Shown in pieces: positions 2,017-28,683 of a DNA stretch of 47,233 bases (position 1 is the first letter of the stretch; each line of letters starts with the position of its first letter). A program made the translations under genes and the position numbers. Below the pieces are notes generated by a model. That model made no database searches and had not been told where the DNA came from. It was given only the letters and a program-made list of their open reading frames with translations. Location: assembly GCA_020053375.1 (NCBI GenBank), contig JAGVNG010000031.1, positions 1 to 47,233 on the forward strand, read 5' to 3'. This DNA comes from Nanobdellota archaeon (GTDB taxonomy: Archaea > Nanobdellota > Nanobdellia > Pacearchaeales > GW2011-AR1).

Positions 2017-2017
2017 A

Positions 2018-5727: not shown

Positions 5728-5775
5728 TTAAATCAAAATAAAAAAGAGGTTTGAAAAAATTTCAGTTTTATAATT

Positions 5776-6015
5776 ATGAAAATAAAAGGCTGGAAAATAA
5801 AAAATAGGAAACTTCACAAAGAATTTAAGTTCAAAGATTTTAAGGAAACCCTCAAATTTGTCAATAAAGTTGGAAAAGCAGCTGAGAAACAAGGGCATCA
5901 TCCCAACATTTATTTCACATGGGGAAGATGCATTATTGATATTTATACACACTCCATTAAAGGGCTGAGTGAAAAAGACTTCGCATTGGCTTCAAGAATT
6001 AATAAGATAAAATAG
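5776..6015 (+). CDS. Pterin-4a-carbinolamine dehydratase-like protein (PCD/DCoH)
   Basis: 79 aa with the PCD pattern: Lys-rich first strand, helix KETLKFVNKVGKAAEKQGHHPNI, then strand YFTWGRCIIDIYTHSIKGLSEKDFALASRINKI. The paired histidines (HHPNI) and the later TH are the expected active-site residues. In the family it dehydrates 4a-hydroxytetrahydropterin, but archaea of this kind usually lack aromatic hydroxylases, so a moonlighting or molybdopterin-related role is possible. It stands alone after tRNA-Cys. Confidence 0.85.
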   Translation: MKIKGWKIKNRKLHKEFKFKDFKETLKFVNKVGKAAEKQGHHPNIYFTWGRCIIDIYTHSIKGLSEKDFALASRINKIK

Positions 6016-6151
6016 TTAGATAAATCTATTCTTGCATTTAAGAAAATAATCTATTGGTGATAAAATTCATCCATATTAAATAGAGTAAAAAGTGTTGATT
6101 TATATTAAAAGTTGTCTTTGCATTCTAACGTCTTATTGCCGTCAGTCCAAA

Positions 6152-7045
6152 TCAAACTTCAAAGACATCCAAATCCTTTGCTAGGAATGTGTTCTTGAAG
6201 ATTTTCTGCGCTTCACTTAATATCCTTAATGGGTCCTTGTCGTATCTCTCGCTTAAATGCGTTAAAATTAATTTCTTCACCTTCGATTCTTTTGCAATCT
6301 CGGCAGCCTGTTTTGAGGTCATATGCTTGTGTTCTCTTGCCAGTTCATGCAATTCAGCATCATAGGTTGATTCAATTATCAGCGCATCCGCATCTTTTGC
6401 AAGAAGATGCATATTTTTGTTTGCCATGCTATCCATCACAAAGCATATTTTCTTTGAGTCAGCAAGATATGTAAGATTCTTTGCTAAATATTTTTTCCCA
6501 TTATGGATTATATCCTTTCCCTCTTTTAATTTATGGAGTAATGGTCCCAATGGGAGCCCTGATTTCTGCAGTTTTTTCTTGTCTATTCTTATCTGCCCTT
6601 TCTTGACAAAGCAGTATGCATTACAGGGTATTCCATGCACCATTAATTTGGATTCAAGGTAAAACTCATCATTTTCAAAGAATTTTCCGTTAACCTCCTC
6701 AACTTCTATTTTTATTCCTGCAGCGGATGGAAATGCAGTAAGCAAATCTTTCATGTGCCTCTTTATCCCCTTAGGACCATAGATAAAGAGGGTTTTTTTA
6801 TATCCATTAAGAGAAAGAGTTTGTATAAGCCCAGGAATTCCAAGAACATGGTCTCCGTGCCAGTGTGTAACCAGAATCCTTGTTACTTTTGTAGGGCTTA
6901 TTCCAGCCATCCTGAATTGTCTCTGTGTACCTTCTCCGCAATCAACAAGAATATTTTCTCCATCATAAGTTAGAAGCATTGCCGGATGATTTCTTTTTAT
7001 GCTTGGAAATGGTCCAGATGTTCCCAAAAAAGTAACCTTTATCAT
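6152..7045 (-). CDS. rnz: Ribonuclease Z (tRNA 3' endonuclease)
   Basis: A 297-aa metallo-beta-lactamase-fold protein of the short RNase Z type. The start MIKVTFLGTSG and the zinc motif HWHGDH (residues 61-66) are typical; further ligands are the His in HGIPC, the Asp in VMDSMA and the His in LTHLSERY. An exosite-like arm (KKLQKSGLPLGPLLHKLKEGKDI) is present. It cleaves pre-tRNA after the discriminator base, which matters here because no tRNA gene in the window encodes CCA. It is monocistronic. Confidence 0.95.
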   Translation of the reverse strand: MIKVTFLGTSGPFPSIKRNHPAMLLTYDGENILVDCGEGTQRQFRMAGISPTKVTRILVTHWHGDHVLGIPGLIQTLSLNGYKKTLFIYGPKGIKRHMKDLLTAFPSAAGIKIEVEEVNGKFFENDEFYLESKLMVHGIPCNAYCFVKKGQIRIDKKKLQKSGLPLGPLLHKLKEGKDIIHNGKKYLAKNLTYLADSKKICFVMDSMANKNMHLLAKDADALIIESTYDAELHELAREHKHMTSKQAAEIAKESKVKKLILTHLSERYDKDPLRILSEAQKIFKNTFLAKDLDVFEV

Positions 7046-7144
7046 AACTAAAACAGGGAAAACTGATTAATAAAAGTAACGAACAAAGCCCAAGCTAAGT
7101 ATAAGCTTTTTAGAATCCTCGCGAAAACTTAAGAGGAAAAACGC

Positions 7145-7399
7145 TTATTCTTTTTTTAATGCTGTTGATGCGGGAGATATAAAAATAATTGTATCTCCTC
7201 GTAGAAAGGTTAACCCGACATTTCTCTTTACTTCGTTGTTTTGCATTTCTTTGGTGTTATCCAAGACCAAATTGATATGGATATCAAAAGCCAATAATGT
7301 CCCAACAAACTGCTTGTCTCCTTTCAGATGCACCAAAACTTCTTTTCCCTTGGAATTGTTTAGCAAGTCCAAAGGTCTCTCGATTCCGTTAACCATCAA
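7145..7399 (-). CDS. Sm-like archaeal protein (LSm)
   Basis: 84 aa. The Sm1 motif spans KGKEVLVHLKGDKQFVGTLLAFDIHINLVLDN, with the usual D-x-H-x-N-L-V-L-D core, and Sm2 is LRGDTIIFISP (usually IRGDNVV). The family forms homoheptameric rings that bind U-rich RNA and take part in RNA processing. It starts MMVNG or one codon later. It is divergent from eS8 across a shared AT-rich intergenic region at 7400-7553. Confidence 0.93.
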   Translation of the reverse strand: MMVNGIERPLDLLNNSKGKEVLVHLKGDKQFVGTLLAFDIHINLVLDNTKEMQNNEVKRNVGLTFLRGDTIIFISPASTALKKE

Positions 7400-7553
7400 T
7401 TAGTTTTGGGAATTTTGTTTATAAATATTTCCGTTAGGAAATATCGATTTGAGAAAACAGAAATTTTCGATTCGTAACAAAATACAGCAAGATATTTAAA
7501 TCACTTTTTTCAACTAATCCTATGAATAAGGGAGAAATACATTTTTAGATAAA

Positions 7554-7916
7554 ATGCATAAAGGAAGAAAAATTTCAGGTGGAAAATATTCAAAAAGAAG
7601 AAAGAAAAGGCTGTATGAGCGACCAGGACAAAAAAGGATAGTAAAACTTGGAAAGGAAAAAATAAAAAGTAAAAGGATGAGGGGTGGAAAATTAAAGGCA
7701 TTCCTAAGTGGCGCAGAATTCGTGAACGTTTCTGTAAAAGGAAAAAATAAAAAGACACAGATTAAAAATGTTCTTGAAACCCCCTCGGATAAATTCCTTG
7801 CAAGACAAAATATAATAACCAAGGGAACAATTATTGAGACAGAGATGGGTAAAATAAGAATAACAAACAGACCAAGTCAGGAAGGGGTTTTGAACGGAGT
7901 TCCTGCTGGAAAATAA
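7554..7916 (+). CDS. rps8e: 30S ribosomal protein eS8
   Basis: 120 aa, the normal archaeal length. It begins MHKGRKISGGKYSKRRKKRLYERPG and ends in the typical TKGTIIETEMGKIRITNRPSQEGVLNGVP. It is a basic rRNA-binding protein of the small subunit shared with eukaryotes. It is the last core gene before the accessory island at 7.93-14.3 kb. Confidence 0.96.
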   Translation: MHKGRKISGGKYSKRRKKRLYERPGQKRIVKLGKEKIKSKRMRGGKLKAFLSGAEFVNVSVKGKNKKTQIKNVLETPSDKFLARQNIITKGTIIETEMGKIRITNRPSQEGVLNGVPAGK

Positions 7917-7979
7917 TTTTCTCAAATTTAAGTCTTTTTTCTTAACATTACCTTCAATCGTCGTCTATAAAAACCTGCC

Positions 7980-8026
7980 TTGCACAAATTTGGGCAAGTT
8001 GCACAATAGAGTTTAAAGTTGCACAA
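7980..8026. repeat. Three TTGCACAA repeats at about 19-20-bp spacing
   Basis: TTGCACAA occurs at 7980-7987, 7999-8006 and 8019-8026, so all three lie on about the same DNA face (two helical turns apart). They lie just upstream of the TATA-like ATTTTATATATTTG (8034-8047) of the DUF4365-like gene, suiting an upstream regulator or element-encoded binding protein. The inverse form TTGTGCAA recurs at the other edge of the island (14268-14275, 14307-14314), with a one-mismatch copy at 14285-14292. Confidence 0.55.
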
Positions 8027-8063
8027 AAAGGAAATTTTATATATTTGAAGTATAAGTAATGTG

Positions 8064-8918
8064 ATGCCTTCACCATACAATTTTAGAAGAGGATGGGAAA
8101 GCGAACATTTAGCCAAGTTTATATTATCAAAGTTCTCCTTTGTAGCAGAACCTTCAACCATTTCAGATGATTTAGGTTCTGACTTCTTTTGTACTCTATT
8201 TAAGGTTGAAGATGGAATATATCTCCTTCCTCAAAACTCGTTTGCAATACAAGTCAAAAGTAAAAAAGATGTAGATAGAGATAATAACAAAATAGAAATA
8301 ACTGATAAACAATCCTACTTGAATGGATTAGAAATACCATTCTTTGTGGGGGTAGTTGATAGAGATAATTTAAAATTAAGCATCTATGTGGGGGAATACC
8401 TCTGTGATTATTTTTCGCTTCTTCCAAACCATGGAGAGGTTCAAAAAGTATTTATAGAATTAATTGAAGAAAGAAGTGAGCCGTTAAAAATGTTTAGAGT
8501 GGAGGGTGATAAAGCTTATATTGAGTTTCCGAAAGTACTTGAAATTGAAGCTGGTTATGAATATGCTTCAGACCCTGATAAGATTAAGGATTTATTTAGT
8601 CTTTGTAAACTAATTCAAGAGAATATTGCTTCAAAATTAAGCCACGAATACATTTTCAAAAAATCCAATAACAACTTTTTTTATATCTATACTGGAGGGA
8701 CTTCAGTTCAACATTTTAGAACAAATTTTAAAAAAAGGTTAGCGGAAGTTTTCTTTAATTTGAAGTGGTTACATGATACCAACTCTTTGCCAAAAGAGGC
8801 AATCAAATCAGAGTTTGAAATCTATAAAAGACTTTATTGTGATTTACTTGATAGAGAGGGTAATTTGCCAGACTATTTGACTAAAATATTTGATGAGTTA
8901 AATAGGTTAATGACTTAA
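8064..8918 (+). CDS. DUF4365-like protein (PD-(D/E)xK nuclease-type fold)
   Basis: 284 aa. The ATG at 8064 follows a TATA box by about 24 bases (leaderless), and an in-frame GTG lies one codon earlier. The first 100 residues match the DUF4365 pattern: G10-x3-E14 helix, D36-D37-x-G-x-D40 in a hairpin, then FAIQVKSKK with Q63-x-K65 and a strand ending FFVGVVDRD. D40 and the QxK motif are the expected metal site of a PD-(D/E)xK nuclease. The C-terminal 150 residues are helical and unassigned. Its position next to a type IIG enzyme suggests a defence role; that is inference. Confidence 0.7.
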   Translation: MPSPYNFRRGWESEHLAKFILSKFSFVAEPSTISDDLGSDFFCTLFKVEDGIYLLPQNSFAIQVKSKKDVDRDNNKIEITDKQSYLNGLEIPFFVGVVDRDNLKLSIYVGEYLCDYFSLLPNHGEVQKVFIELIEERSEPLKMFRVEGDKAYIEFPKVLEIEAGYEYASDPDKIKDLFSLCKLIQENIASKLSHEYIFKKSNNNFFYIYTGGTSVQHFRTNFKKRLAEVFFNLKWLHDTNSLPKEAIKSEFEIYKRLYCDLLDREGNLPDYLTKIFDELNRLMT

Positions 8919-8969
8919 TCTCGGCTTTGTTAAATAAGTCCTAATTTTAGCTTACTTTTTTAACAGAAA

Positions 8970-9131
8970 TCATCTCTTTTTCTTTAAAGCCTTGAGTTCT
9001 CTTTCTATTTTTGAGATATGCTTATCAAGAATCCCAAACAAATAATTATCCCTTTCCTTTATTATCATCCAGATTTTATCAACTTCCTTTTCAAGTTTCT
9101 TTATTTTCTTCTCAGTTGCTTTGTCATTCAT
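8970..9131 (-). CDS. 53-aa coiled-coil protein
   Basis: A minus-strand frame starting MNDKATEKKIKKLEKEVDK and ending RELKALKKKR, with heptad-like spacing of I, L and V residues through nearly its whole length. A TATA-like TATTTAAATTAAA lies about 20-30 bases before the ATG, consistent with its own promoter. It is highly charged (about half Lys/Glu/Asp/Arg). It sits between the DUF4365-like gene and the type IIG enzyme. No family was recognised; a small regulator or oligomerisation partner is possible. Confidence 0.6.
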   Translation of the reverse strand: MNDKATEKKIKKLEKEVDKIWMIIKERDNYLFGILDKHISKIERELKALKKKR

Positions 9132-9271
9132 TTGATTGTTAAAGCTGTTTAATTTAAATACTTTTACGCAGAATTGTCTTTGTTTAATAAGTAGGCGAGA
9201 GCGGGGATTGTCGCATTAAGGGACTTTTGAGTTTTAGGTAAGTTTTTATATAATACCTCATAAATTTGTAT

Positions 9272-12200
9272 ATGAAGGCAGATTTATTCAATGAAAAGAC
9301 AATAAGTAAGTTTATATTGAAAATCGAGCCAAATTCTAAGCAAAAAAGTGCCTCTAAGAAATGGATTGAGTTATTAGAAAAAGATGAACTTCAAGAAGAG
9401 GTGTCTAATTATCCTAGATTTACGGAAATTATATTAAAAGAGATTTTAGGATACGATACACTTAATTTTAAACACGAAGAAAAGAATATGGAATTTCCAT
9501 TTAGAGACAAATCTGGAAACTTTTTAGTATGTTTTGAAGCAAAAGGAACAAAAACTAGCGATTTATGGGCTTTACAAGGCAGAAGCATAAAAATAAGAGA
9601 AACACCTGTAAATCAAATAAATGACTACCTCTATAAAAACAAAATTCCTTTTGGAGTTTTAACAAATTATCGGGAATTTGTTTTATTCAAAAGAGAAGAA
9701 GGATACACTAAGTTCCATAAGTTAGACTTCTTTGATATTAAGAACAATCCTGAAAAATTAAAAGAGTTTATAGCTATATTTTCCAGAGAGAGCTTTGAAG
9801 GAAAAGAGACTGAAAGATTGTATAACCAATCAATAACAGAGGAGAGGAATTTTACAAAAGAATTCTATAAACTGTACCATGAAACAAGACTTATGATTCT
9901 AAAGGAGTTCAAAGAAAGTGGAATTGAAAATGAAATTTGCTTACATTATTCTCAACTATTTTTGAATAGATTAATGTTTATCTTCTTTGCAGAAGATAGC
10001 GATTTACTTGAAAAGAGATATTTTGAAAATAAGATTTTAGAAGTTCTTGATAAAAGTGGAGGAATAGATGGGTATACTAATTATGTTTTTGGGAAGATAA
10101 ACGGGATTTTCAGAGAGTTAGATAAAGAAATTCCTAAGCAAATAAAAGGTTTTAATGGAGAATTGTTCAAAGAAGAAATTGATGGAAGGTTGTCTTTCAA
10201 GGATTATAGAAACCCAAATTTCTTTAAAGACGTATTTCAAAATTATAAATTAGACAAAAGTTTAGAACTAAATGAAAATGATAGACAAATCTTCAACAAG
10301 CATAAAAATAAACTAAACAAGATAATTGAAAATATTTTATTGATGGCTTCTTTTGATTTTGAAACAGAAGTTAATGTTAACATTTTAGGTCATATCTTTG
10401 AACAGTCTATTTCAGACATAGAAAACTTGAAAGAAGAAACATCCTCAAAAAGAAAACAAGAAGGCGTTTTTTATACTCCTGAGTATATAACAGAGTATAT
10501 TTGTAGAAATACTATAGTTCCTTATCTCTCAAAAAGTGGGACTAATGACATTAATCTGTTAATAGAAGAGTATTCAGAGAATATGGGGGAGTTAGAAAAG
10601 AAGTTTAAAGATATTAAAATTTTAGACCCAGCTTGTGGCTCTGGAGCTTTTTTGATTAAATCAACTGAAATTTTGTTTGAAATATTTGAAAAAGTACAAT
10701 GGGTTAAAGAGAACTATGGGGAATATCAAGCGAACAGGGGATTAAAGAGAAAAAGTAATTTTAAAGGACAATCAACATTAAAGAAATGGGATGAAAGAGG
10801 AGAAATAAAAAATATTATAGAGAACAATATTTTTGGGGTGGATATCAACGAAGAATCTGTTGAGATAACTAAGCTATCTTTATTTTTGAAAATAGCGACA
10901 AAAAATAAAAAGTTAATTGACCTTTCAAAAAATATTAAACAAGGCAATAGTCTAATAGATGACGAAGAAATTGCTGGTAAATTGGCTTTTAATTGGGATA
11001 AAGAATTTCCATTCAAGTTTGATGTTGTTATAGGCAATCCACCTTATGGTGCAAAAATGAATGAAGAGGAAGTAAAATTCGTGAAAAAGAATTATTCTGT
11101 TGGCAACTCAGAAACAGCACAGTTAATGATGGAGAAAGCATATTCTTTGCTTAAGGAAAATGGATATCATGGTTTTATAATTCCAAAAGCATTTACTTTT
11201 GTGTCTACTTGGGATAAAATAAGGAACAAATTTTTAGATGAATTGAATACTTTAATTGATTGTAAAAAGGTTTGGAAGGAGGTTAAGTTAGAGCAAATAG
11301 TGTATACTCTTCAAAAAGGAAATAAGTTGAGCAAATACAATTCTGGAATAAGAGATAATCAATCAATAAAAATTATAGCTAATGTGGACAAGTCACTTAT
11401 TCCTAAATTTGATGGCGTTTTATTAAACTCTTTAACAAATCAAGAGATTAAAATTGGTTCAAAAATTAAGGATATAAGGACTAATTTAGGAAAGATTGGG
11501 ATTAACAAATGGGGAGATGTATTCTACAAACAAATGAATCAAGACAAAAAAGGATTTAAGGTTTTGGGAGGTAATGAAATACAAAGATACTATAAGAGAG
11601 GCGTTAAGGGGTATATTGAAGAGAAGTATGTTAAAACAGACCAATCTTTAATAAAACCAAATTCTATTCTACTACAAAGAATAATTTCACATATTGAAAA
11701 CCCCATAGACCATTTAAAAATTTCTGGAACTATTTTTGATGAATCTGATTATAGGATTGTGAACACCGTTCATCAATTAAATCTGGATAAAGATGTCTCT
11801 AATAAGTATGTTTTAGCAATTATGAATTCTAATTTTATGAATTGGTTTGTTTACAGATTCGTGTTTGCTAAAGCGATAAGAAGCTTTCAGTTTTCAGGAG
11901 ATGTTGCAAAAAAGATACCAATTCCAAAAATCTCTTTAAAAGAACAAGAGCCATTTATAGAAAAAGTGGATTTAATGCTTAAGTTGAATAAAGATTTTTA
12001 TGAAAAGAGAGATAAAATCTTAAGGTTACTGAAACAAGAGTATAACCTGAGTAAAATTACTCAAAAATTGGAAAGATTCCATGAATTAGACTTTGACGGA
12101 TTTATCAAACAATTAGGAGTTAACAATTTGAGCATGAGTAAAAAGTCTGAACTACTTGATTTTTTTGATAAAAACAAGAAAGAGATATCAGAGATAGACA

Positions 12201-12298
12201 GTAAAATTGAAAAAACGGATGGCGAAATAAACAAAATGGTTTATGACTTATACGGAATCACAGACCCTAAAGAAAGAGAGATTATTAGAAATTCTTAG
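9272..12298 (+). CDS. Single-chain type IIG restriction-modification enzyme (Eco57I-like)
   Basis: 1008 aa. The start at ATG 9272 is chosen because TTTTTATATAATA (9244-9256) sits at leaderless spacing. Domains in order: an N-terminal PD-(D/E)xK endonuclease (FPFRDKSGNFLVCFEAKG, about residues 75-92); a helical connector; the N6-adenine methyltransferase with FYTPEYITEYI, motif I DPACGSGAF (about 452-460) and catalytic motif IV NPPYG (about 588-592); then a C-terminal target-recognition region of the TaqI-like kind and a terminal coiled coil. Cutting and methylation should thus be in one chain, so no separate methylase is needed. A BREX PglX-type methylase is the main alternative, but the N-terminal nuclease motif argues for type IIG. 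Confidence 0.88.
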   Translation: MKADLFNEKTISKFILKIEPNSKQKSASKKWIELLEKDELQEEVSNYPRFTEIILKEILGYDTLNFKHEEKNMEFPFRDKSGNFLVCFEAKGTKTSDLWALQGRSIKIRETPVNQINDYLYKNKIPFGVLTNYREFVLFKREEGYTKFHKLDFFDIKNNPEKLKEFIAIFSRESFEGKETERLYNQSITEERNFTKEFYKLYHETRLMILKEFKESGIENEICLHYSQLFLNRLMFIFFAEDSDLLEKRYFENKILEVLDKSGGIDGYTNYVFGKINGIFRELDKEIPKQIKGFNGELFKEEIDGRLSFKDYRNPNFFKDVFQNYKLDKSLELNENDRQIFNKHKNKLNKIIENILLMASFDFETEVNVNILGHIFEQSISDIENLKEETSSKRKQEGVFYTPEYITEYICRNTIVPYLSKSGTNDINLLIEEYSENMGELEKKFKDIKILDPACGSGAFLIKSTEILFEIFEKVQWVKENYGEYQANRGLKRKSNFKGQSTLKKWDERGEIKNIIENNIFGVDINEESVEITKLSLFLKIATKNKKLIDLSKNIKQGNSLIDDEEIAGKLAFNWDKEFPFKFDVVIGNPPYGAKMNEEEVKFVKKNYSVGNSETAQLMMEKAYSLLKENGYHGFIIPKAFTFVSTWDKIRNKFLDELNTLIDCKKVWKEVKLEQIVYTLQKGNKLSKYNSGIRDNQSIKIIANVDKSLIPKFDGVLLNSLTNQEIKIGSKIKDIRTNLGKIGINKWGDVFYKQMNQDKKGFKVLGGNEIQRYYKRGVKGYIEEKYVKTDQSLIKPNSILLQRIISHIENPIDHLKISGTIFDESDYRIVNTVHQLNLDKDVSNKYVLAIMNSNFMNWFVYRFVFAKAIRSFQFSGDVAKKIPIPKISLKEQEPFIEKVDLMLKLNKDFYEKRDKILRLLKQEYNLSKITQKLERFHELDFDGFIKQLGVNNLSMSKKSELLDFFDKNKKEISEIDSKIEKTDGEINKMVYDLYGITDPKEREIIRNS

Positions 12299-12310
12299 TA
12301 TCATTTTAAT

Positions 12311-16868: not shown

Positions 16869-17987
16869 TCATCTCAAAGCCAGATTAAACACTTTCTTAT
16901 AAATTTTGTACTCTTCAGGATAATTAGAAGAAAATGAATCATAAACTTCTTTATCTATATACCTTGTATAGTCTTGAGACGAGGGATATTTCTCATATTG
17001 CGCCATATAAGCATATATTTCCTGCCAATTTCCCGTTGACAAAGTAAGTCGCAAAGCAGCAGGAACCAAGGTAAATTCCGGGAGATTTGCTGATAATAAA
17101 GGATCAAAATCAGATATTTTTTTGTTTGATAAAAGATTCCTCTCCTCTTCTGTCAATTCTTTGTGGATAATCTCATGAATTCTTTCATGAAATAGATAAT
17201 CATCAGGGTAATCTTCTATAAGAACGATATTTCCCTCAGTTGTTAAAATTTTATAATAACTTTCTATTTCTTTATCAGAAAATTTTGTTTTTTCTTCTAA
17301 AAGAGAGATAAATTTTTTTTTGTCAGACGTTACAAATGGCAAGAAATCAAAGGTTTCTCCTGGGATAAAATTTTGTGAAACATAGAATCCTCCGGGATTT
17401 GATTCCTCCCAGCTTTTATCCATTATTACAGAATAAATAGCTTTTAAAACTGAATCGGGAACAGCATACTCATTAGACTTTAATTTTAATTTGTGTGTTA
17501 TTTCTATGTTACATGTAGATGAAGAGTTAATGGAAGTAAGAATTAAATTTCTTAGTTCATCGGAAATGAACAAAAACATTTTTGAGATATCCTCGTTAGA
17601 TGGAGAAGGAGAATTCAGAACATCCTGAACGGGGGAAGTTCCCTTAATTTTTGCTAAATTCTCTTCTCCTAAACTGCAATGTGCATAAGTAACAAATCTC
17701 AATTGATTCTTTTTGACATTATAAAATACAAGAACGTTCCAATTTCTATTAGGTCCTCTTTGCAAACCTTTTAGAACAAAATCATAAAGAGATTCCCCAA
17801 AAATACTCCCATCCGAATCAGTTACATCAAAAATAACCCGGACACCATGATAATTTTCTAAATCATTTAGATTTTCAGTTATTTTTTGCAAATTTTCAGA
17901 GGACAAGATTGAATCTAAGGGAACAGCAGAGGCTGTTGCAGTTTTAATAAAGAAAACAATTATCAAAAAGAAGACTATTTTTTTCAC
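16869..17987 (-). CDS. Secreted protein with TPM-like domain and HExxH metalloprotease motif
   Basis: 372 aa with a signal peptide (MKKIVFFLIIVFFIKTATA). Residues about 30-115 (LENYHGVRVIFDVTD...NWNVLVFYNVKKNQLRFVTYA) resemble the TPM/TLP18.3 domain of secreted and membrane proteins. A zinc-protease signature HERIHEIIH lies at H267-E268-x-x-H271, with candidate third-ligand Glu residues downstream (QEIYAYMAQYEKY). It is the last gene of a three-gene minus-strand operon, two bases after the 2398-aa protein. It may process or mature the giant protein, or act on extracellular targets. The TPM call is tentative; the HExxH is plain. Confidence 0.6.
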   Translation of the reverse strand: MKKIVFFLIIVFFIKTATASAVPLDSILSSENLQKITENLNDLENYHGVRVIFDVTDSDGSIFGESLYDFVLKGLQRGPNRNWNVLVFYNVKKNQLRFVTYAHCSLGEENLAKIKGTSPVQDVLNSPSPSNEDISKMFLFISDELRNLILTSINSSSTCNIEITHKLKLKSNEYAVPDSVLKAIYSVIMDKSWEESNPGGFYVSQNFIPGETFDFLPFVTSDKKKFISLLEEKTKFSDKEIESYYKILTTEGNIVLIEDYPDDYLFHERIHEIIHKELTEEERNLLSNKKISDFDPLLSANLPEFTLVPAALRLTLSTGNWQEIYAYMAQYEKYPSSQDYTRYIDKEVYDSFSSNYPEEYKIYKKVFNLALR

Positions 17988-17989
17988 TT

Positions 17990-20900
17990 TTAAACTCCTA
18001 TCAAATTATCTGCTGGGTTTTGATCTTTTTCCAGAAAGGGATTCACCTTAAGGTTTTGGGTATTTAACGAAGAAGATGATTGTGACGAAAGAGAGGTTGA
18101 ACCACTGCACGTCTCAGGGAAGAGTGCTTCTACCTCATCTTTATTGTTAAGAACATTATCAACATATGCTGGATCACCAACAAGCAAAAAGTTTCCGTGG
18201 CTATCTAGTTTCAGACTTTTATCAGCATTTGTTTGTAAGCATTGGGTATTCCAACCATTATAACCCCTCAATGCCCTTTTCCAATCAGAATAAGATACTT
18301 TAGAGAAATCTGTTTCTCTAACTGGACCTACAAAGATTGATGACCTATAACAATCATAAACTTTTGGATTAGGATTATATTTATTTATTAGATAATTTAT
18401 TCCAAACTTTATATTCTCAGAAAATTCCTGTACTTGAATTGTTGGATGTTCACCTATATTTATCTGCATAATTCCTTTGCTATTGCCATTATCCCCTGAA
18501 AGGACTCCATCAATATTTCCGTTGCAATATAAAGGATCCCCATCCCTTTCATAATCAATAATATTTCCATTTACAATTTTTCCGCATTGCCTTATTTTTG
18601 ATTCTTGATATGCTAACTGCAATATCAAACACTCAAAATTCTTTGCGCCTGTTTGCTCAGTTATTTTCCGGTCATCTTCTGAATCTATCTCATTTTCCTT
18701 TTTTATCTCTCTTGCTGCAAGAACGATTTCTTTTCCCAAAGCCTTCTGGCATTCTTCTTGTGTGCTACAGACAAGGCCACTTGGAGTTGTTTCTCCGCTG
18801 CTTGCAGGAGTGCCAAAATCTGCCGCGTTGATGCCAAAAATAATTAGCGCACCATCAATATCATTTTTCCCGATAAGACTCTTTATTAAATTAGCTTCTC
18901 TTTCTACAGTGCTATCAAGCCCTACCAAGAATATTTCTGATGAAACAGATTTCCAGATTTTCTCATCAGTGGAACCTCCCATGTAAGTCCATTCATTTGC
19001 TATTCCAAATTCAAAGTAAATAGGAGTCGCCTGTTTAACAGTGAATATCCCTTCTTGTGAAAATGACACTTTATTTGTAAACAACTCTACATTAGAAAGA
19101 ATACCTTTTCCTGTATTTGCCCTTGTTGCCTTCATGAGTATGTCTATACCTTGTTGAATAGTCTGATCAGATAATGAAGATGTAAATTCTTTAATTTCTT
19201 GAGACAATGCGGGAACAATTTCTACTGTTGTTGCATCCTGCCCTGTTTTCAAGCCAGAAGCGCCAGCTGACACTGCTTGATACCATTTCTGTTTGTCTAT
19301 GGACCAATACCAATTATTTCCAGAATAACTATAATAGATAGTGTTCTTGAAAAGTCCCAATCCTCCCCCATAATTGTATGCAAAGATAGGGGAAATAATT
19401 CCAATTTTTGATATCTCTTGGTGTTGCTCTTCTAAAATTTTACTAATTTCATCCTTAGGGGTTGCTGTGGCTGTTGTCTCTGTAGTAGTTGTCTTCTCAT
19501 CATTCTTCTTCTTGAACAACTCAAAAGCCAATTTGCTATAAACATCACCTCTTGTCATCAAAAGCCATCCTTTTTGGTAATTATAAAAGAACTTTCCTAT
19601 TACATCATTTATCTTGCTTATTTTTTCATTGTTGTCTCTGGTATTTTCTATGCCTGTTAAAGTGCTTTCAAAGTCAGGAGCATTTCCTTTGGCATTCAAA
19701 TCAGCCTGCGCCTGCGCATTAATTGCTTCAACAGTTCCATTCCGTATGTCCAGATTTCTTATGTTATCATTTACGCTTTGCATATCAAGCCAGCATTTTA
19801 TTTTTGTGTTTCCGCAATAGCCGACTTCAACCCATCTTTGGTTTTCCGTGTTTAGAAGCCCATCCGTTCCCTGTCCTGGATTGTTTGTCGCGCATATTCT
19901 GTAAATTCCCTGATTGTACAAGTCAGGATTTACCGTATTGCTGACACCTTCCTGCAAATTTGGATTAAGCATACTGTAAAGGCTTGGTGTTCCAGAGATG
20001 CATTCAGCCTCTGATTTCACATTAGTAGTAGACTGCTCTTTCAAATACTGGTCCTTTACATAATTCACTGTAAAGTCCGTCGATACTTGCTTGAATCCGC
20101 ATTCTTCCTGTCCATTGACAAGTATGCACATTTGTGAGTAACCAGAAGGAGCAGTAAAATCAACTGTGCTAGAATTGTATCCACCTTTTTGCACATATCC
20201 ATAACCAACAACCCTACTCATGGCAGTGTCATCATAATACGAACTTCTGGGAGCTCCTTTCAGATAAACTCTGTAATAAGCTCCCGTGTCTTTTCCTGCA
20301 AATATGTGATAAAATACTTTGTACTGTGAAACTGGAGGATTTGTTGCCGTTGTGAAAGGAATTTCATCAAACCTTCCCGTGAATTGAGGGGGTGAGTCGG
20401 CCTGTGTTAGGCTATCCAGTAGGTTTCCGCTGTTTGGATAAACCCCTGATGCAAAATTCTTGCAAAACTCTCCTCCGACTTCGTCGGTGCTTCTTGCCTT
20501 GAATGCCTTGAAGGAATCATCTGCATAATATTGTGTGAAATACGTGACTGACTTCTCCGCATTTTCCCATGCATTTGCAACCCCAAGATATTCTCCTCCG
20601 CCTCTCGTGCCTTGCCCAAGAGCGCTGCTCAGAACCGCGGGAATGGCTATCTTAGCAACTGGAAGGCTTTGTCTCCAGAAGAACTCGCACATATAAATGC
20701 TCTGAATTTCATCACATATGCCCACTGTTTTTCCTGTATCTATCTGTTCCCGCAAGCAGTCCCTATATGATTTCTGTATGCTTACCCAATTGTCCAATCC
20801 TGCCTTCACTCCTGTCAGGCAAACAGGCATACCTATTCCTTCATTTATGTTTGGCAGGCATAATGCAATGCTTCCTATTACCCCGCTCTGCACAACATCT

Positions 20901-23900
20901 GCAACAGGATATGCCCCGCCCAAATTGCATCTCGATGAGGGACATATTACAGGGTCGCAAACATTGAATAAGATTTGGCATTGGCCTGGAGACATGAAAT
21001 CCTCGCATTCAACTGACGGCACGTTTGCAGAAGGGCTTCCAACTTTTATTGATTCCGCTATTCCTGGCACCTTTACGTGGGCATTTGCTTTGCCCACAAT
21101 AGAAGGATATTGTTTCTGCACGCTTAATATTGCCTCCTCTGCCTTTCTTACAAGGCTTGCAACCTCGCTGTCCGATAGTCCTGAAAACCTCGAAAATGTT
21201 TCCTTTGAGCCAAGAACAACAAGCTGGGAGATGTCATCTCCTCCGCCCTCAAAGAAATCAACATTCCCATTTGTTCCAGTATTTCCAAGATAATAACTGT
21301 AAACCCTTCCTGATTCATCAAAGCTTCTTACATTTCCAAATCCTGGCAACGTTTGCGACATTGCAACATACCATCCTTTCTGAGTATCTAATGGAACAAG
21401 TGCAGGCGCTCCCTTGAACGGCTCTGTCTCGAAGTATTTTACCTCAGGATTGTTGTATTTATTACTATAAGAAGAACTATCAACTTTCTTGAATTGAAGG
21501 GCAAGTGGATTGACTGCATCTGTATTAATAAATAAATTATTGCCCTGTATTTCAAATGTTCTGTCAACAACATATGAATTGTCAAGAACAAGCATGTATT
21601 TTTTATTATTTGATATGTCTGTTAGAAGATAAACATACTCTGCATCTTTTGGAGAGAGATCCATTGTGATCTCAGTAGAAGCGCTGGTTGCTCTTCCTTT
21701 GAATGCCATTAAATTTACTGGAACGCTGCCAATCACCTGTGTAAACTTGCCTTTAACCTGTACCCATGTTTTAAGTGTAGAAAATTCAACGCTCTTGATA
21801 TCTTTTCTCGTTGATATAGAACCCCCTTCTCCAGGACTAAGTCCAAATTCGTCTAGGAAAGTATCTCTCTGCACTATTTCTTTCGAGTTTACATTGACAT
21901 TCGAGAGCAACGAGTAAAGTTTCTGCTGTGCCCTTGCATCGCCTGGATTTGTTTTAAGAACATTGCAATAGAACCCAACATCCCTCAACTCTTCAAAGTT
22001 GTAATTCTTGCTTTTGTTCCATATTTTAAATGAAAGAGCTTCCTGAATATCTTTTATCTTTATTTTCTCAGATGATTTTAATGGATTTGTAATTTCAGCA
22101 CTGGAGCAGCTGGCCAAATCTGAGGAAACCTTTACGGAATAATCTTTAATCAAGCCAGTGCTGTCAACTACATCTTCTGAAAATAATCCTCCACTCTTTA
22201 TTATATTTGCTTTATCTATATTCTCAATTTCATTATTTTGTTCTGTCAGGGTCTTGTAATACTTATCCACTTCGGCATCAATTTTATCTGAATTTTCAAA
22301 CAGACAATCCTGCAGTGTTGAATATACCTCACCATCAATCAATGTTTTTTCTCTCACCCACTTATTGCACTGGTCATACCACCCGTTAGGGTCCCTCATT
22401 ACTTTCTGTCTTGCCAATCCTTTTCCATTCAGATTGGATAGCAAATTATCAATAGTAAATATTGCACCCGTTGCCAGACAGGCAGTCTTCAATCCAGTAA
22501 CAACGTTTCCTAAATCAGAGGAAATCTTATCTAATTTTTTTACATCTTCATCAATGCTTTTTATTTTGTCTTGCGCTTTGTCGGGAGACAGTTTCATTAA
22601 ATCACTTCTTTTTTCTATTCCTATTTTGAACTTGAACGTTGTCTCTGTTCCTGAATAATCTATGTTTGGAAGCACAGAAACTTTTGCAACTCTTTTAAGG
22701 TTTATTTTTTGTATCGTGACTTCATAATTGCCTATGCCTGCCTGAGGAATCCCCTTCTTGAAAGAAACCGCTCTCTCAAAGCCAGCGCTTCTGGCTGTTC
22801 CTATAGCGAGAATATCAACATTGCTTTCATCTTTTATTGTTCCAAGTTTTATGTAAGTAGCAGTGGTTGAAGTGCTTGGAACACTTAATTTGCCCCCTGT
22901 TTCTATAATAAGTTTTTTCCCCTCTTCAAAACTCTTTCCCTTATCAGAAGCAAGAGCTTTTATTAAATCAATATTGGCTGATGTGAGCATTTGTCCACCA
23001 GTAATTCCCGCTTTTGTATAGTCGCTTGGAATTTGTGTAACTGGATAGAAGGTAGATGTGGTAGCCCATTTCCAGATATTATCTTCATACTTAAACCATA
23101 AAGAATTTGACGAAGCCCCCCTGTCAATAGTAAATAATGTTGAAGCGGTGTCCGTAACAGGTGTTTCCAAGTAAAATATCTCATTGTTTCTCAGTACAAA
23201 CTGAACAGGGGCGCTGGATGCATCGCCTATTTTTCTTGCATATCCTTCAACGCTGTATTCATCGTAACTTGGTTCATAAATTCCATTGAACGATATCTCC
23301 TTCACTTTCCCGTTTATTGTGACAGATCTTACGGAGCTCACATCACTTGAAAGCTTCAATGCATCGGAGCATGTTTCAGGAGCAATTTCATTAGGATATG
23401 CTTCGCTGAATTCCTTGCACAAATCAATCATTGTTCTCCTCTGCTGCATCTGCTCTGCGAAATATATCTTCCTGAAGAAAGTTTCCTTCCCAATGTTATT
23501 AGAACCATAATTCTCAGATGCAAAGCTCTTAAGCACTTCATCATAGTCATCAATTGCTTTTTGATAAGATGTAAGAGTGTCTTTGTCAAGCTCTGCATTA
23601 ACAGCTCCCGAGAAATCTTTTATTTTTATTTTGATGATATTGGTATTTCCCTTTGTGTCTTTGAATATTTCTTTTTCCTTAGAGTAGGTTACCCTGTCAA
23701 TTGATTCCTCAGTCACTGCAGATCTTCCAACCTCATAAACAGATGCACCAGCTCTTTTCACTCCAGTTGCAATCAAATTGAAAACATTGTTAGGCGACGT
23801 GGAATCTTCATAAAGAGGACCAAGCCTTGTTGAAATTTCTTCCAGCGTATTTTCATCCAACGTCTGGATAGCTTCTGTAAGGGCAATAAAAATTACCTGC

Positions 23901-25186
23901 AAATCTTCTTTCTTATTTGTGTTTTTTTCGGAGCCTATATATCCAACATAAATGCTCTTACCATCGCTTGTTTTCTCTACAAAGTCTCCCAGTCCCATGC
24001 TTCTGCTCTGTCCGTTAACTTCCAATTCAACTTTTGGAGCTGTTTTTAATGTGAAAGCCTTGCTTCCAAACAACCCGGAACCCTGGTCTTCCTTGCACTT
24101 TATCTCAACTCTTTCGTTTAGTCCGTATTTGTCCATGCTCAAAACCTCGCACTTTCCATCAAGGAAAGTTTCATCCTCTGCAACTTCCTGAACATCTGAG
24201 TTGACTTTTATTCTTGCCCTTGTGTCTGGGAAAGTGATGTCATCAAGCCTTATCCTCATGTTTGCCAGGCAGTAATTGAATCCAGTCATATATATTTTTT
24301 CAGATGTCGCACCTTCTTTCAATGAAACAGTGTTTGTCTTCTGCAGATTCCCTGTGTACCCTGTTTTTCCTGAATAAATGGAGATTGTTGCTCCATCTTT
24401 TTCAATATTTTCTGCTTTCAAAAATCCTCTTCCATCCCAGAATCCGTACGATTTATACCTGCCATTATCGAATTCATTCGAATCTATAAGAGGGAGATAA
24501 TAAGTTGCTTGTCCTACCCCAAATGCGTTCTCAATATTATATTTTATTTTGGCCGTCAAATTGCCTTCCACAACACAAACTTCCCCTACGTCTAATCCTA
24601 ACAATTTAGAATCCATACAATTAGTCAGCGCAGATTCATTTGGCTGCCTCTTTAAAACAATAACAGCAGAGCCAATATTTTCAAGAACAGGATAATTATC
24701 AAGTGTTGTGGATCTTCCTGTTCCCAAAGCAGCCTTGTTTGGATTGAAGCCAACTCCTGCAACTTCCTTTGGAGTCTGTCCGGAGAAGGTTATGTAATCA
24801 ATCGCCTTTACATCAACAAGAGGATTTATTTGTGTTGCAGCTATCTGGCAATAAACAGGAACATTCTGTTCTTCAAGCAAATCACTTCTAACAACAGCGG
24901 GAGTACATCCAAGGGGGGCCATCTGCAAAACAAAATCTTGTCCTGCTTCGCACATGCTTCTGTCAAACTGTCCGGGAGTTTCCCCGAAAAATCCTCCGGC
25001 AAAACTTCCTATTCCCCCAAGCGCATGGTAATTATTCGTCCTCGTATATCCTGCAGAGATAAATGACAAGCTCGATATAATTAAAATCCCGATTAGAACT
25101 GTTAATAATAGATTAAATTTCACATCAGCCTTTTTATCAATTAACAGTCCTGTTTTATTCATTAGCAATCTTTTTTCTCTTTCCAT
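17990..25186 (-). CDS. 2398-aa secreted protein with C-terminal lysozyme-like (SLT) domain
   Basis: N-terminal membrane/signal segment at about residues 24-46, then a very long extracellular part rich in beta structure with many Cys pairs. A coiled-coil stretch is near 860-900 and a Cys-rich hydrophobic section near 1400-1530. The C-terminus (about 2180-2365) fits a GH23/SLT lytic transglycosylase: catalytic-type Glu2195 in LAYQESKI, SKGIMQIN near 2236, ENIKFGINYLINKY, then LRGYNGW near 2306 and YVDNVL. Archaea lack murein, so the target could be another cell's wall or a different glycan. It follows a pilin-like gene and precedes a HExxH protein with two-base gaps. A second Met (MNKTGLL, codon 9) is an alternative start. 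Confidence 0.75.
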   Translation of the reverse strand: MEREKRLLMNKTGLLIDKKADVKFNLLLTVLIGILIISSLSFISAGYTRTNNYHALGGIGSFAGGFFGETPGQFDRSMCEAGQDFVLQMAPLGCTPAVVRSDLLEEQNVPVYCQIAATQINPLVDVKAIDYITFSGQTPKEVAGVGFNPNKAALGTGRSTTLDNYPVLENIGSAVIVLKRQPNESALTNCMDSKLLGLDVGEVCVVEGNLTAKIKYNIENAFGVGQATYYLPLIDSNEFDNGRYKSYGFWDGRGFLKAENIEKDGATISIYSGKTGYTGNLQKTNTVSLKEGATSEKIYMTGFNYCLANMRIRLDDITFPDTRARIKVNSDVQEVAEDETFLDGKCEVLSMDKYGLNERVEIKCKEDQGSGLFGSKAFTLKTAPKVELEVNGQSRSMGLGDFVEKTSDGKSIYVGYIGSEKNTNKKEDLQVIFIALTEAIQTLDENTLEEISTRLGPLYEDSTSPNNVFNLIATGVKRAGASVYEVGRSAVTEESIDRVTYSKEKEIFKDTKGNTNIIKIKIKDFSGAVNAELDKDTLTSYQKAIDDYDEVLKSFASENYGSNNIGKETFFRKIYFAEQMQQRRTMIDLCKEFSEAYPNEIAPETCSDALKLSSDVSSVRSVTINGKVKEISFNGIYEPSYDEYSVEGYARKIGDASSAPVQFVLRNNEIFYLETPVTDTASTLFTIDRGASSNSLWFKYEDNIWKWATTSTFYPVTQIPSDYTKAGITGGQMLTSANIDLIKALASDKGKSFEEGKKLIIETGGKLSVPSTSTTATYIKLGTIKDESNVDILAIGTARSAGFERAVSFKKGIPQAGIGNYEVTIQKINLKRVAKVSVLPNIDYSGTETTFKFKIGIEKRSDLMKLSPDKAQDKIKSIDEDVKKLDKISSDLGNVVTGLKTACLATGAIFTIDNLLSNLNGKGLARQKVMRDPNGWYDQCNKWVREKTLIDGEVYSTLQDCLFENSDKIDAEVDKYYKTLTEQNNEIENIDKANIIKSGGLFSEDVVDSTGLIKDYSVKVSSDLASCSSAEITNPLKSSEKIKIKDIQEALSFKIWNKSKNYNFEELRDVGFYCNVLKTNPGDARAQQKLYSLLSNVNVNSKEIVQRDTFLDEFGLSPGEGGSISTRKDIKSVEFSTLKTWVQVKGKFTQVIGSVPVNLMAFKGRATSASTEITMDLSPKDAEYVYLLTDISNNKKYMLVLDNSYVVDRTFEIQGNNLFINTDAVNPLALQFKKVDSSSYSNKYNNPEVKYFETEPFKGAPALVPLDTQKGWYVAMSQTLPGFGNVRSFDESGRVYSYYLGNTGTNGNVDFFEGGGDDISQLVVLGSKETFSRFSGLSDSEVASLVRKAEEAILSVQKQYPSIVGKANAHVKVPGIAESIKVGSPSANVPSVECEDFMSPGQCQILFNVCDPVICPSSRCNLGGAYPVADVVQSGVIGSIALCLPNINEGIGMPVCLTGVKAGLDNWVSIQKSYRDCLREQIDTGKTVGICDEIQSIYMCEFFWRQSLPVAKIAIPAVLSSALGQGTRGGGEYLGVANAWENAEKSVTYFTQYYADDSFKAFKARSTDEVGGEFCKNFASGVYPNSGNLLDSLTQADSPPQFTGRFDEIPFTTATNPPVSQYKVFYHIFAGKDTGAYYRVYLKGAPRSSYYDDTAMSRVVGYGYVQKGGYNSSTVDFTAPSGYSQMCILVNGQEECGFKQVSTDFTVNYVKDQYLKEQSTTNVKSEAECISGTPSLYSMLNPNLQEGVSNTVNPDLYNQGIYRICATNNPGQGTDGLLNTENQRWVEVGYCGNTKIKCWLDMQSVNDNIRNLDIRNGTVEAINAQAQADLNAKGNAPDFESTLTGIENTRDNNEKISKINDVIGKFFYNYQKGWLLMTRGDVYSKLAFELFKKKNDEKTTTTETTATATPKDEISKILEEQHQEISKIGIISPIFAYNYGGGLGLFKNTIYYSYSGNNWYWSIDKQKWYQAVSAGASGLKTGQDATTVEIVPALSQEIKEFTSSLSDQTIQQGIDILMKATRANTGKGILSNVELFTNKVSFSQEGIFTVKQATPIYFEFGIANEWTYMGGSTDEKIWKSVSSEIFLVGLDSTVEREANLIKSLIGKNDIDGALIIFGINAADFGTPASSGETTPSGLVCSTQEECQKALGKEIVLAAREIKKENEIDSEDDRKITEQTGAKNFECLILQLAYQESKIRQCGKIVNGNIIDYERDGDPLYCNGNIDGVLSGDNGNSKGIMQINIGEHPTIQVQEFSENIKFGINYLINKYNPNPKVYDCYRSSIFVGPVRETDFSKVSYSDWKRALRGYNGWNTQCLQTNADKSLKLDSHGNFLLVGDPAYVDNVLNNKDEVEALFPETCSGSTSLSSQSSSSLNTQNLKVNPFLEKDQNPADNLIGV

Positions 25187-25188
25187 TT

Positions 25189-27018
25189 TTATTCAAACCT
25201 TATATCCAGTTTTTTATCATCAAACAATATGAAATTATTCTGCAGCTGCTCGAGTGAAGTTGGCAAAGGAAGGCTTTCTGCATTTATTCTGACAACATCT
25301 GAGGAAGTCAGTTCCGATTCCAATATATAATAATCCTGCTTTCCTCCTCCTGCCAGAACACTTGAGATTATCTGCGAAGGTATTCTAATGTCAATGCACT
25401 TCTCTGCCGTAAGCCCGAAGAATCCCCCTATTCCTCCTGCGGGAACCTGTACACATTCTGTCTTCGTTGTTTCTGGGAACTTTAGTGAGGAATTCTTGTA
25501 AACGTAAACCTGAACTGCATATTGCCCCGAACTTAATTCAACATTTTTCTGCTCGGGATAAACGACAGTATTTGTACTTCCGTCGCCTTTTACAAATGTT
25601 ATGATTGCATTTCCATTGTATGCCTGCCCATCAAGCCTCAAATCAACATTTAAGTCGTGAGTCTTCTCAAGGAACACATTCACAACCCCTATTTCAGAAG
25701 TTGTTGAATGAAGAAGATTTCCTTCTTCATATCCATCTGCTTTTGCAACAACATATCCATTGACGCATTGTGGGAACATTCCTTTCAAGACTCCATTCTG
25801 GGTCTTTCCAATATTGCATATCTCTGAAAAGCATCTGTATAAAACATCTGCCTCTACAGGAGCAAGATTTGAATCAAATGTGTGAATCTCCAACTCTGTA
25901 TTTTTGTATCTGCAAAGTTCAGGCACGCCTATCTCTGTTGCGCTTGAGTTCAAAGGCTGTCTTGGCTTGTTTCCCTCCACAACAACCGCCATTGGAAACT
26001 GGAATGTCTCTTCTCCTTTTTGAACTTGGACTAAAACAGGATATCTTGCATTGTAAACAAAATGATATGGAACATAGCAGAATCCAAGAACGCCGAGCCC
26101 AGGCTGGTTTCCAACTGGACTGGCCATTAAAAGATTATCTTCAGAAGGAGCAACTTCAAATGTGCTTGGCCATCTTTTATCATTCAAAAATCTCACTTCG
26201 CCATCAATAGAAACATCAATATTGTAGTATCCTTTTCCAAGGTTGCTTCCAAGCACAATGGTATTCTGCTCCAGGGCAACCTGTAAATCATCAAATACCT
26301 TGTCTGCGCTCCAGATTTTTGGAGAGCAGGATATTTCAACTCCGTCAACAGGGGCATATAACCTGAGAACGTCAATGCTATGATTTTCCAAAAATAAATT
26401 TTTCTGCTCGGAATCATAAACCCGTAGCGCAGAATCATACAATGTTCCTAAATTGGACACCACAGTCTTGTCATGATTTTGAACACGCACCGTATCATTT
26501 CCTTTTTCAAGCGTCATGTCCATTGCCAAATTCACATCAATGGAATCATCATTTATTGTTACATCTGAATATGGCTCTTCCATTGACACAACGACTCCCT
26601 GTCCATAATATGCCTGAAAACTGCAGGCTCTTATTCTCTCATTGATAAATCTTTCAAGCTGCTTTTCCATCGCGCTTTTTGTGGGAACTTGTTCTTTCTG
26701 TATCCTGTTGCCTGAAACATAATACCAATATGGAACGCTTGTTCCCAAAAAATCGAGTTGGGAATTAAAGGGATAATAATGAGAGCCCAATTCCACAGAT
26801 GGCAGATAAATATATCCCGCCTGGCTTTCCAATAATCCCACACCGGTGTTTGTATCATCTTCCAAGCATGACAAAAAACTCGTGTAAGTAGGCTGTAAGC
26901 TTGCAGGAATTGAAACAGAAGTCAGGGTTCCCCTGAGCAAAAAATATAATCCCACTGCGGCAACAATTATGATGGCCAAGATTACAAATACCGTCAGCTG
27001 CCCCCTTTTATTCTGCAT
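25189..27018 (-). CDS. Pilin-like/secreted surface protein, operon partner of the giant protein
   Basis: 609 aa. The N-terminus MQNKRGQLTVFVILAIIIVAAVGLYFLLRG has the KRGQ-hydrophobic form of class III (type IV pilin-like) signal sequences seen in DPANN archaea. The rest is extracellular, with repeated Ig-like or carboxypeptidase-regulatory-like beta domains (VEADVLYRC, GYVVAKADGYEEGN, LNVDLRLDGQAYNGNAIITF) and paired cysteines. First gene of the three-gene operon, two bases before the giant protein. A role as a filament or anchoring subunit that presents the giant protein is inferred. Confidence 0.7.
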   Translation of the reverse strand: MQNKRGQLTVFVILAIIIVAAVGLYFLLRGTLTSVSIPASLQPTYTSFLSCLEDDTNTGVGLLESQAGYIYLPSVELGSHYYPFNSQLDFLGTSVPYWYYVSGNRIQKEQVPTKSAMEKQLERFINERIRACSFQAYYGQGVVVSMEEPYSDVTINDDSIDVNLAMDMTLEKGNDTVRVQNHDKTVVSNLGTLYDSALRVYDSEQKNLFLENHSIDVLRLYAPVDGVEISCSPKIWSADKVFDDLQVALEQNTIVLGSNLGKGYYNIDVSIDGEVRFLNDKRWPSTFEVAPSEDNLLMASPVGNQPGLGVLGFCYVPYHFVYNARYPVLVQVQKGEETFQFPMAVVVEGNKPRQPLNSSATEIGVPELCRYKNTELEIHTFDSNLAPVEADVLYRCFSEICNIGKTQNGVLKGMFPQCVNGYVVAKADGYEEGNLLHSTTSEIGVVNVFLEKTHDLNVDLRLDGQAYNGNAIITFVKGDGSTNTVVYPEQKNVELSSGQYAVQVYVYKNSSLKFPETTKTECVQVPAGGIGGFFGLTAEKCIDIRIPSQIISSVLAGGGKQDYYILESELTSSDVVRINAESLPLPTSLEQLQNNFILFDDKKLDIRFE

Positions 27019-27708: not shown

Positions 27709-28026
27709 ATGAAACTTCCAAAAACAGTCAACAGATATTGTCCGCACTGTAACAAAAAAACAGAGCAGAAGGTAAAAATAGTCGGAACAGGTGGAAAAAG
27801 AGGAACCCTTAGAAGAGGGGGCATAGCCAGAGCAAGATTAAGAGGGTTGGGAAGAGGATATGGTAACAAGGGAAAATGGGGTTCCAAACCGGCTGTTTCA
27901 AAATTCAAGAGAAAATCCAAGACAACTAAAAAGTCAAATATAATGTATACCTGCACCGTATGCAAGAAATCAAAATACAGGCAGGGAAGAAGAAATAAAA
28001 GGACGGGAAAAATAGTACAGGAATAA
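27709..28026 (+). CDS. rpl44e: 50S ribosomal protein eL44 (L44e)
   Basis: 105 aa: MKLPKTVNRYCPHCNKKTEQKV, a Gly/Arg-rich basic middle, and a C-terminal zinc pair CTVC, so the zinc ribbon is C-x2-C...C-x2-C as in the family. It is followed not by eS27, as in many archaea, but by a 41-codon frame and eS1. Confidence 0.96.
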   Translation: MKLPKTVNRYCPHCNKKTEQKVKIVGTGGKRGTLRRGGIARARLRGLGRGYGNKGKWGSKPAVSKFKRKSKTTKKSNIMYTCTVCKKSKYRQGRRNKRTGKIVQE

Positions 28027-28030
28027 GAAA

Positions 28031-28156
28031 ATGATAAAAATATCAATGGCTGCTGGATTCATAAAATATGGAGTTTTTAATCTGAATCATTCGGAGGCAA
28101 TGAAAAGGTTCAGTCTGGCTGCTGGATTCATAAAAACCAGCAGGAGGTTTTTATAA
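28031..28156 (+). CDS. Possible 41-aa leader ORF before eS1
   Basis: An open frame starts four bases after the eL44 stop and ends in TAA overlapping the eS1 start (TAATG). It reads MIKISMAAGFIKYGVFNL...KRFSLAAGFIKTSRRFL and contains an internal repeat AAGFIK, which comes from a 20-base direct repeat in the DNA (28047-28066 and 28116-28135). The tight fit between stop and start suggests translational coupling, but the frame could equally be a by-product of a structured leader. No family recognised. Confidence 0.35.
   Translation: MIKISMAAGFIKYGVFNLNHSEAMKRFSLAAGFIKTSRRFL
28047..28147 (+). promoter_or_regulatory. eS1 leader: repeat arms and hairpin touching the Shine-Dalgarno
   Basis: CTGCTGG (28119-28125) pairs perfectly with CCAGCAG (28137-28143), whose end overlaps AGGAGG (28142-28147), eight bases before the eS1 ATG. 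The 20-base repeat places a second copy of the CTGCTGG arm upstream (within 28047-28066), so two 5' arms compete for one 3' arm. This is the layout of a translational switch, possibly bound by eS1 itself. Confidence 0.5.
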
Positions 28157-28683
28157 TGGCAATCGCAAAAAGAAAAAAAAGATTTTTTGATGTTGAAATT
28201 CCTATTTTGAACAAAGAAACACAGCTTCAGGCTTATGAACTTCAGGAGCTTGATGGAAAATTTCTTAGTTATGATCTGACAAGATTATTAAGGGGAAAAA
28301 ATATGCTTGCACAATTTAAGGTCAGTGTTTCCGGAGACAAAGCCGAAGCAAACCCAAGAATGTTGCAAATAATGCCTTCTTTCCTGAGAAGGATGATTAG
28401 AAAAGGAACACACCAAGTTGATGATTCTTTTGAAGTTCAGACAAAGGACTCCAAAGCCATAATAAAGCCCTTCTCAATAACAAGGAGAAAAGTGCCAAGA
28501 GCAATTCGGACATCTTTGAGAAACGCAACGAAGGAATATCTGATTTCTTATGCGCAGGGAAAAACCGGATTGCAGATATTCGAAGATATCATAAGGGGAA
28601 GTTTGCAGAAAGACATGAGTTTAAGGCTCAAGAAGATATACCCTCTCTCGCTCTGCGAAATAAGAATTTTCAAGATAAAATAA
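28156..28683 (+). CDS. rps3ae: 30S ribosomal protein eS1 (S3Ae)
   Basis: 175 aa, slightly shorter than the usual 200 or so. It begins MAIAKRKKRFFDVEIPILNKE and carries the typical GKFLSYDLTRLLRGKNM and KPFSITRRKVPRAIRTSLR segments. The C-terminus RLKKIYPLSLCEIRIFKIK is the normal end of archaeal versions (PLRRVEIRKIE in others). AGGAGG lies eight bases before the start. Confidence 0.94.
   Translation: MAIAKRKKRFFDVEIPILNKETQLQAYELQELDGKFLSYDLTRLLRGKNMLAQFKVSVSGDKAEANPRMLQIMPSFLRRMIRKGTHQVDDSFEVQTKDSKAIIKPFSITRRKVPRAIRTSLRNATKEYLISYAQGKTGLQIFEDIIRGSLQKDMSLRLKKIYPLSLCEIRIFKIK

Follow-up and report, generated by a model that had tools for sequence, protein, structure and literature searches.

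A gene coding for a type IV pilin-like protein and the gene of a giant, Cys-rich scaffold make up a conserved unit, probably of the cell surface, in the Pacearchaeota, and the C-terminal part of the scaffold is an exchangeable module. In the genome analysed here, that part is a well-supported GH23/SLT lysozyme-like domain with a catalytic Glu, as judged from profile matches and structure prediction. We propose, with a probability of about 0.6, that the surface-displayed scaffold presents wall-lytic enzymes to bacterial cells. The gene pairing, its conservation, the predicted GH23 fold with its catalytic Glu, the swapping of hydrolase families and the absence of Mur ligases were computed directly; enzymatic activity, bacterial target and surface display are put forward on the basis of these features.

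The window, i.e. the whole 47,233-nucleotide stretch of DNA that was analysed, belongs to a genome of 0.68 Mb in 33 contigs (91% complete). The locus comprises three minus-strand ORFs with gaps of 2 bases each, coding for a 609-residue pilin-like protein (25189..27018), a 2,398-residue secreted giant that we call P0001 (17990..25186) and a 372-residue secreted protein with a GTG start (16869..17987). This layout and the motif positions in the giant agree with the first-pass annotation. None of the three proteins matched a Pfam or NCBIfam family directly. Genes for the ribosomal proteins L44e and S3Ae are found on the plus strand at 27709..28683, and members of these two families are encoded upstream of the pilin-like/giant pair in 46 and 58 loci, respectively. 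The conserved synteny of the pair also includes TFIIB, S8e, LSM and RNase Z genes. The relatives collected with a profile of the conserved core of the giant are almost throughout named Candidatus Pacearchaeota or Nanoarchaeota archaeon. We rejected bacterial contamination, because the L44e and S3Ae neighbours are archaeal, the synteny is conserved and the relatives bear archaeal names; the lineage is Pacearchaeota (Nanoarchaeota, DPANN). One record titled Patescibacteria (L157) harbours a typical archaeal giant and partner, and this MAG is probably mislabelled or mixed.

In 116 of 134 loci, the gene immediately upstream of the giant gene codes for a homologue of the 609-residue protein, and about half of the gene pairs that were measured overlap by 4 bases. 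A homologue also accompanies the giant gene in each of the 20 distant loci analysed in the class. The conservation of the third gene is very different. Its product contains two overlapping HExxH motifs (HERIHEIIH), but the gene was detected in only three of 92 genomes including its own, the two others being weak matches, and it was not found beside the giant gene in the other loci examined. Thus, the conserved unit consists of two genes, not three: of the three-gene set first proposed, the tight pairing of the pilin-like protein with the giant holds, while the HExxH gene, which we rejected as a component, adjoins the unit from outside. It had also been suggested that the HExxH protein is a protease that matures the giant. 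The position of its gene, on the same strand and 2 bases away, is in line with such a role, but the lack of conservation leaves it unsupported, and we consider it highly improbable. The scaffold itself can also acquire protease-like domains, as the tail of another giant (L088) has a HExxH-like stretch (TTLHEILH). Locus L052, with a giant that bears three hydrolases, also encodes a second P0003-like copy (417 residues) at positions 1847-3100, beyond the giant gene.

The 609-residue protein starts with MQNKRGQLTVFVILAIIIVA, a class III, type-IV-pilin-like start. Its signal KRGQLTVFVILAIIIVA combines charged residues, a G or A, a Q and a hydrophobic stretch, an arrangement present in nearly all homologues, and is followed by approximately 570 residues predicted to be extracellular. 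T2SSE-type ATPases (PF00437, a family that also covers non-pilus ATPases) were detected in all 71 genomes searched, including that of P0001, which is compatible with a pilus-type export route for the partner. In locus L151, a second pilin-like protein of 272 residues with a class III start is encoded 13 bases after the giant gene.

P0001 contains 40 Cys among its 2,398 residues. Its hydrophobic N-terminal segment (residues 24-46, 25049..25117, minus strand), read directly from the sequence as VKFNLLLTVLIGILIISSLSFIS, may represent a signal peptide or an anchor. Alignments delineate a conserved core with many invariant Cys (residues 1255-1830, 19697..21424, minus strand). BLAST searches identified relatives of the giant in 73 of 92 genomes. 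Apart from its own genome, it is present in 53 of 55 within the family, 18 of 19 from the other families of the order and one of 17 from elsewhere in the class. The core profile detected the giant in 160 of the 371 genomes searched in the phylum, with E values often <1e-80 outside the order, and in further families the core is seen as a short Cys-rich kernel. The part that reaches these distant families corresponds to residues ~1450-1585 of P0001. Because the core profile extends to numerous families of the class outside the order, we rejected a restriction of the giant to the order. The AlphaFold model of the core (residues 1235-1850) is poor (pLDDT of 61) except for beta-sandwich parts, and its Foldseek matches are generic Ig-like folds, from which no function was drawn.

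In addition, iterative profiles revealed a W-rich repeat of ~110-150 residues with the pattern IYFKY..W.WS.D...W..V. Three copies are found in P0001, at residues 651-792 (22811..23236), 1886-2033 (19088..19531) and 2024-2149 (18740..19117), all on the minus strand; two of them precede the enzyme domain, the last one directly. The repeat is present in 37 of 115 giants and enriched in those with SLT domains (Fisher p of 8e-5, uncorrected for relatedness). We conjecture that it could bind glycans and might represent a new glycan-binding or linker module. One giant (L049, genome G007) is split into two ORFs, at 5513-6988 (491 residues) and 7082-12310 (1,742 residues); the SLT domain lies close to the beginning of the latter.

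The GH23/SLT domain of P0001 spans residues 2136-2352 (18131..18781, minus strand). The putative catalytic Glu, E2195 (codon at 18602..18604, minus strand), lies within LAYQESK, and the GIMQIN and YNGW motifs start at residues 2238 and 2309, respectively. P0001 alone gave no match to Pfam SLT at E<=1, and a phmmer search of the PDB with the C-terminal domain gave none either; only profile methods exposed the relation with GH23. An iterative profile built from residues 2131-2350 ties P0001 to other giants, including ones that match Pfam SLT. The profile of 24 copies of the domain (A3) matches MltC (2.5e-8), EtgA, MltE and Slt70 in the PDB, with E values ranging from 2.5e-8 to 6e-5, and aligns E2195 with the catalytic Glu of the matched lytic transglycosylases, e.g. 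that of MltC. In the 24 aligned copies, E2195, the G and Q of GxMQ and the Y and G of the YNG motif are invariant. This conservation was read from the domain-level alignment, and the E2195 columns of a full-length MAFFT alignment were left out because the variable tails are badly placed in it. The AlphaFold2 model of the domain has a pLDDT of 88 and a pTM of 0.86. The first 33 Foldseek matches of this model all belong to the lysozyme superfamily, with a best E value of only 0.04 and TM scores of 0.25-0.41, and include goose lysozyme, a high-ranking GH23 chitinase of Ralstonia, MltF and a fungal muramidase. The profile matches to solved enzymes, the Glu conserved in all 24 copies and the predicted lysozyme-like fold bear out the C-terminal murein-hydrolase-type domain of the first-pass annotation, which had named the fold and the conservation of Glu2195 in homologues as its tests. 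The domain thus shares the catalytic Glu, the GLMQI motif and the fold of bacterial GH23 enzymes (MltC, MltE/EmtA, Slt70 and EtgA), but unlike them it has diverged enough to miss Pfam SLT.

The enzyme at the tip varies among the giants. Pfam searches with 58 giant tails identified SLT (14 cases), M23 (6), Amidase_3 (5), glucosaminidase (2), NlpC/P60, Amidase_6 and LysM domains (1 each), and 53 further tails yielded 12 SLT domains. These hydrolase domains occur singly or combined. The giant of L052 has M23, Amidase_3 and SLT domains, those of the sister rows L077 and L079 differ (M23 and Amidase_3, respectively), and those of L041 and L049 have their SLT domain inside the protein rather than at the C-terminus. 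Purpose-built profiles detected a hydrolase in 41 of 114 unique giants. Once P0001 itself and the canonical SLT copies that Pfam recognises were included, 45 of the 106 labelable giants had one and 61 had no recognised hydrolase. With approximately half of the giants lacking a recognised hydrolase, lysis is not the universal function of the scaffold. On the scaffold tree, the tip labels require at least 25 changes (mean of 39.9 after shuffling) and hydrolase presence or absence 19, counts that are approximate because this quick tree has many weakly supported forks and the profile labels can miss divergent domains. The trait is clustered on the tree, yet it has changed many times. Among the 20 distant giants of the class, fn3 and Ig-like domains prevail, and two giants have SLT. 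The C-terminal domain of some distant giants (L185, L186 and L174) is of the SGNH hydrolase, transglutaminase-like or bacterial SH3 type.

Alternatively, the giant might be an ordinary surface-layer or adhesion scaffold, with the hydrolase domains as accessory acquisitions that play secondary or local roles. The core is near-universal in the order and reaches other families while the hydrolases come and go, and the distant giants carry fn3, Ig-like, SGNH, transglutaminase or SH3 domains instead. Nevertheless, murein-specific domains have been re-acquired repeatedly, and the catalytic Glu of the GH23 domain is invariant; both features suggest that wall cutting has been under selection. We therefore view a purely structural scaffold as rather unlikely, and prefer the presentation of wall-lytic enzymes.

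As regards their substrate, no Mur ligase (PF08245) was found in the genome of P0001, and the family is absent from 91 of the 92 genomes searched. Thus, there is no sign of an endogenous murein or pseudomurein; the first-pass annotation had assumed that an archaeal host lacks peptidoglycan. Bacterial GH23 enzymes remodel the wall of their own producer, whereas the producer of the giant is devoid of Mur ligases. Bacterial peptidoglycan is most likely the substrate, since murein-specific families share one scaffold; that all the swapped families act on murein would otherwise be hard to explain. The initial proposal of a bacterial wall as the target gains weight from these unrelated peptidoglycan hydrolase families on the same scaffold, and the notion of a 'contact device' is plausible. 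A counterpoint to murein lysis is that GH23 also includes chitinases, which are among the top structural matches of the predicted model. The substrate might then be another glycan, namely chitin, a methanogen host's pseudomurein or a glycan coat of the archaeon itself, as the high rank of the Ralstonia chitinase in the fold search could indicate; Amidase_3, M23, NlpC/P60 and glucosaminidase domains, found on the same scaffold, speak for murein and make such substrates quite improbable.

The giant may be the only such enzyme of its genome within the three Pfam families searched, as SLT, M23 and Amidase_3 domains were not found elsewhere in it (91% complete). Across the 92 genomes, SLT was detected in 33, M23 in 22 and Amidase_3 in nine, and stand-alone peptidoglycan hydrolases (PGHs) of ~180-460 residues with SLT or M23 domains are also common in the order. 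Together with the very small genomes (0.4-1.6 Mb), these free-standing enzymes are consistent with scavenging or passive binding, in which a secreted giant would digest or hold murein fragments of dead bacteria with no attack on live cells. A study of a vent chimney, which reports GH23 enzymes in many Pacearchaeota, proposes peptidoglycan of dead bacteria as a source of amino acids (PMC11537232). A scavenging enzyme would not need a 2,400-residue scaffold and a conserved pilin-like partner, and we deem this scenario unlikely.

We thus favour a two-gene module that acts at the cell surface of Pacearchaeota and related Nanoarchaeia and displays wall-lytic enzymes. The pilin-like protein would be exported and anchored or assembled by a type-IV-pilus-type route, and the giant Cys-rich scaffold would be secreted and probably displayed together with it. 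In this genome, the GH23 lytic transglycosylase at the tip would cut the peptidoglycan glycan strands of another, bacterial cell, possibly to open or grip the wall of a host or prey, and might serve in attachment or feeding. In this lineage, such enzymes are probably directed against bacterial neighbours or hosts. By analogy with polymorphic toxins or phage tail lysins, one might go further and envision a contact-dependent attack or entry apparatus across the class of these DPANN archaea, i.e. a pilin-anchored scaffold whose tip is exchanged to match bacterial hosts or prey; this extension is possible but tentative, and we lean against it. Like polymorphic toxins, the giants have a conserved scaffold and a variable C-terminal enzyme, but no toxin-release element was recognised and some of their hydrolases are internal (L041, L049). 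In the loci examined, no conserved same-strand gene that might confer immunity directly follows the giant gene, and the nearest conserved neighbours of the pair are housekeeping genes, mostly on the opposite strand. An immunity gene is not expected, because a murein-free cell would need none.

Giants of this type have been reported before. In Castelle 2021, fam00969 comprises giant proteins with murein transglycosylase domains from Pacearchaeota and Woesearchaeota that possibly bind bacterial walls (PMC8204110). P0001 is a large extracellular protein with such a domain, and the lineages, the size (up to 3,000 residues), the enzyme domain and the proposed role in attachment to bacterial walls are the same. 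Judging by these descriptions, P0001 almost certainly belongs to this family. The central idea of the first-pass annotation, a giant with a GH23 domain, is supported but not new. The accessible account of fam00969 mentions neither a pilin-like partner nor the replacement of SLT by M23, Amidase_3, glucosaminidase or NlpC/P60, and we found no earlier description of the partner or of tip exchange in the open-access literature that we could consult. Other work is in line with archaeal enzymes directed at bacteria. Strock et al. 2025 showed experimentally that PGHs from Halogranum kill bacteria, and their survey found PGHs to be prominent and diverse in Nanoarchaeota (PMC12352652). The giant would resemble these enzymes in being aimed at bacteria, but as described those of Halogranum are modular secreted enzymes, not 2,400-residue scaffolds with a pilin-like partner. 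Vigneron et al. 2022 proposed a vampiristic lifestyle for Woesearchaeota with GH23 enzymes (PMC9723730).

These analyses provide a list of enzyme domains and targets that can be assayed, and a two-gene marker of the system. They bear on the question of whom Pacearchaeota live on: the repeated swapping of unrelated murein-cutting domains on a single conserved scaffold in a murein-free lineage is, at the genomic level, strong evidence for interactions of many of its members with bacterial walls, and not only with archaea.
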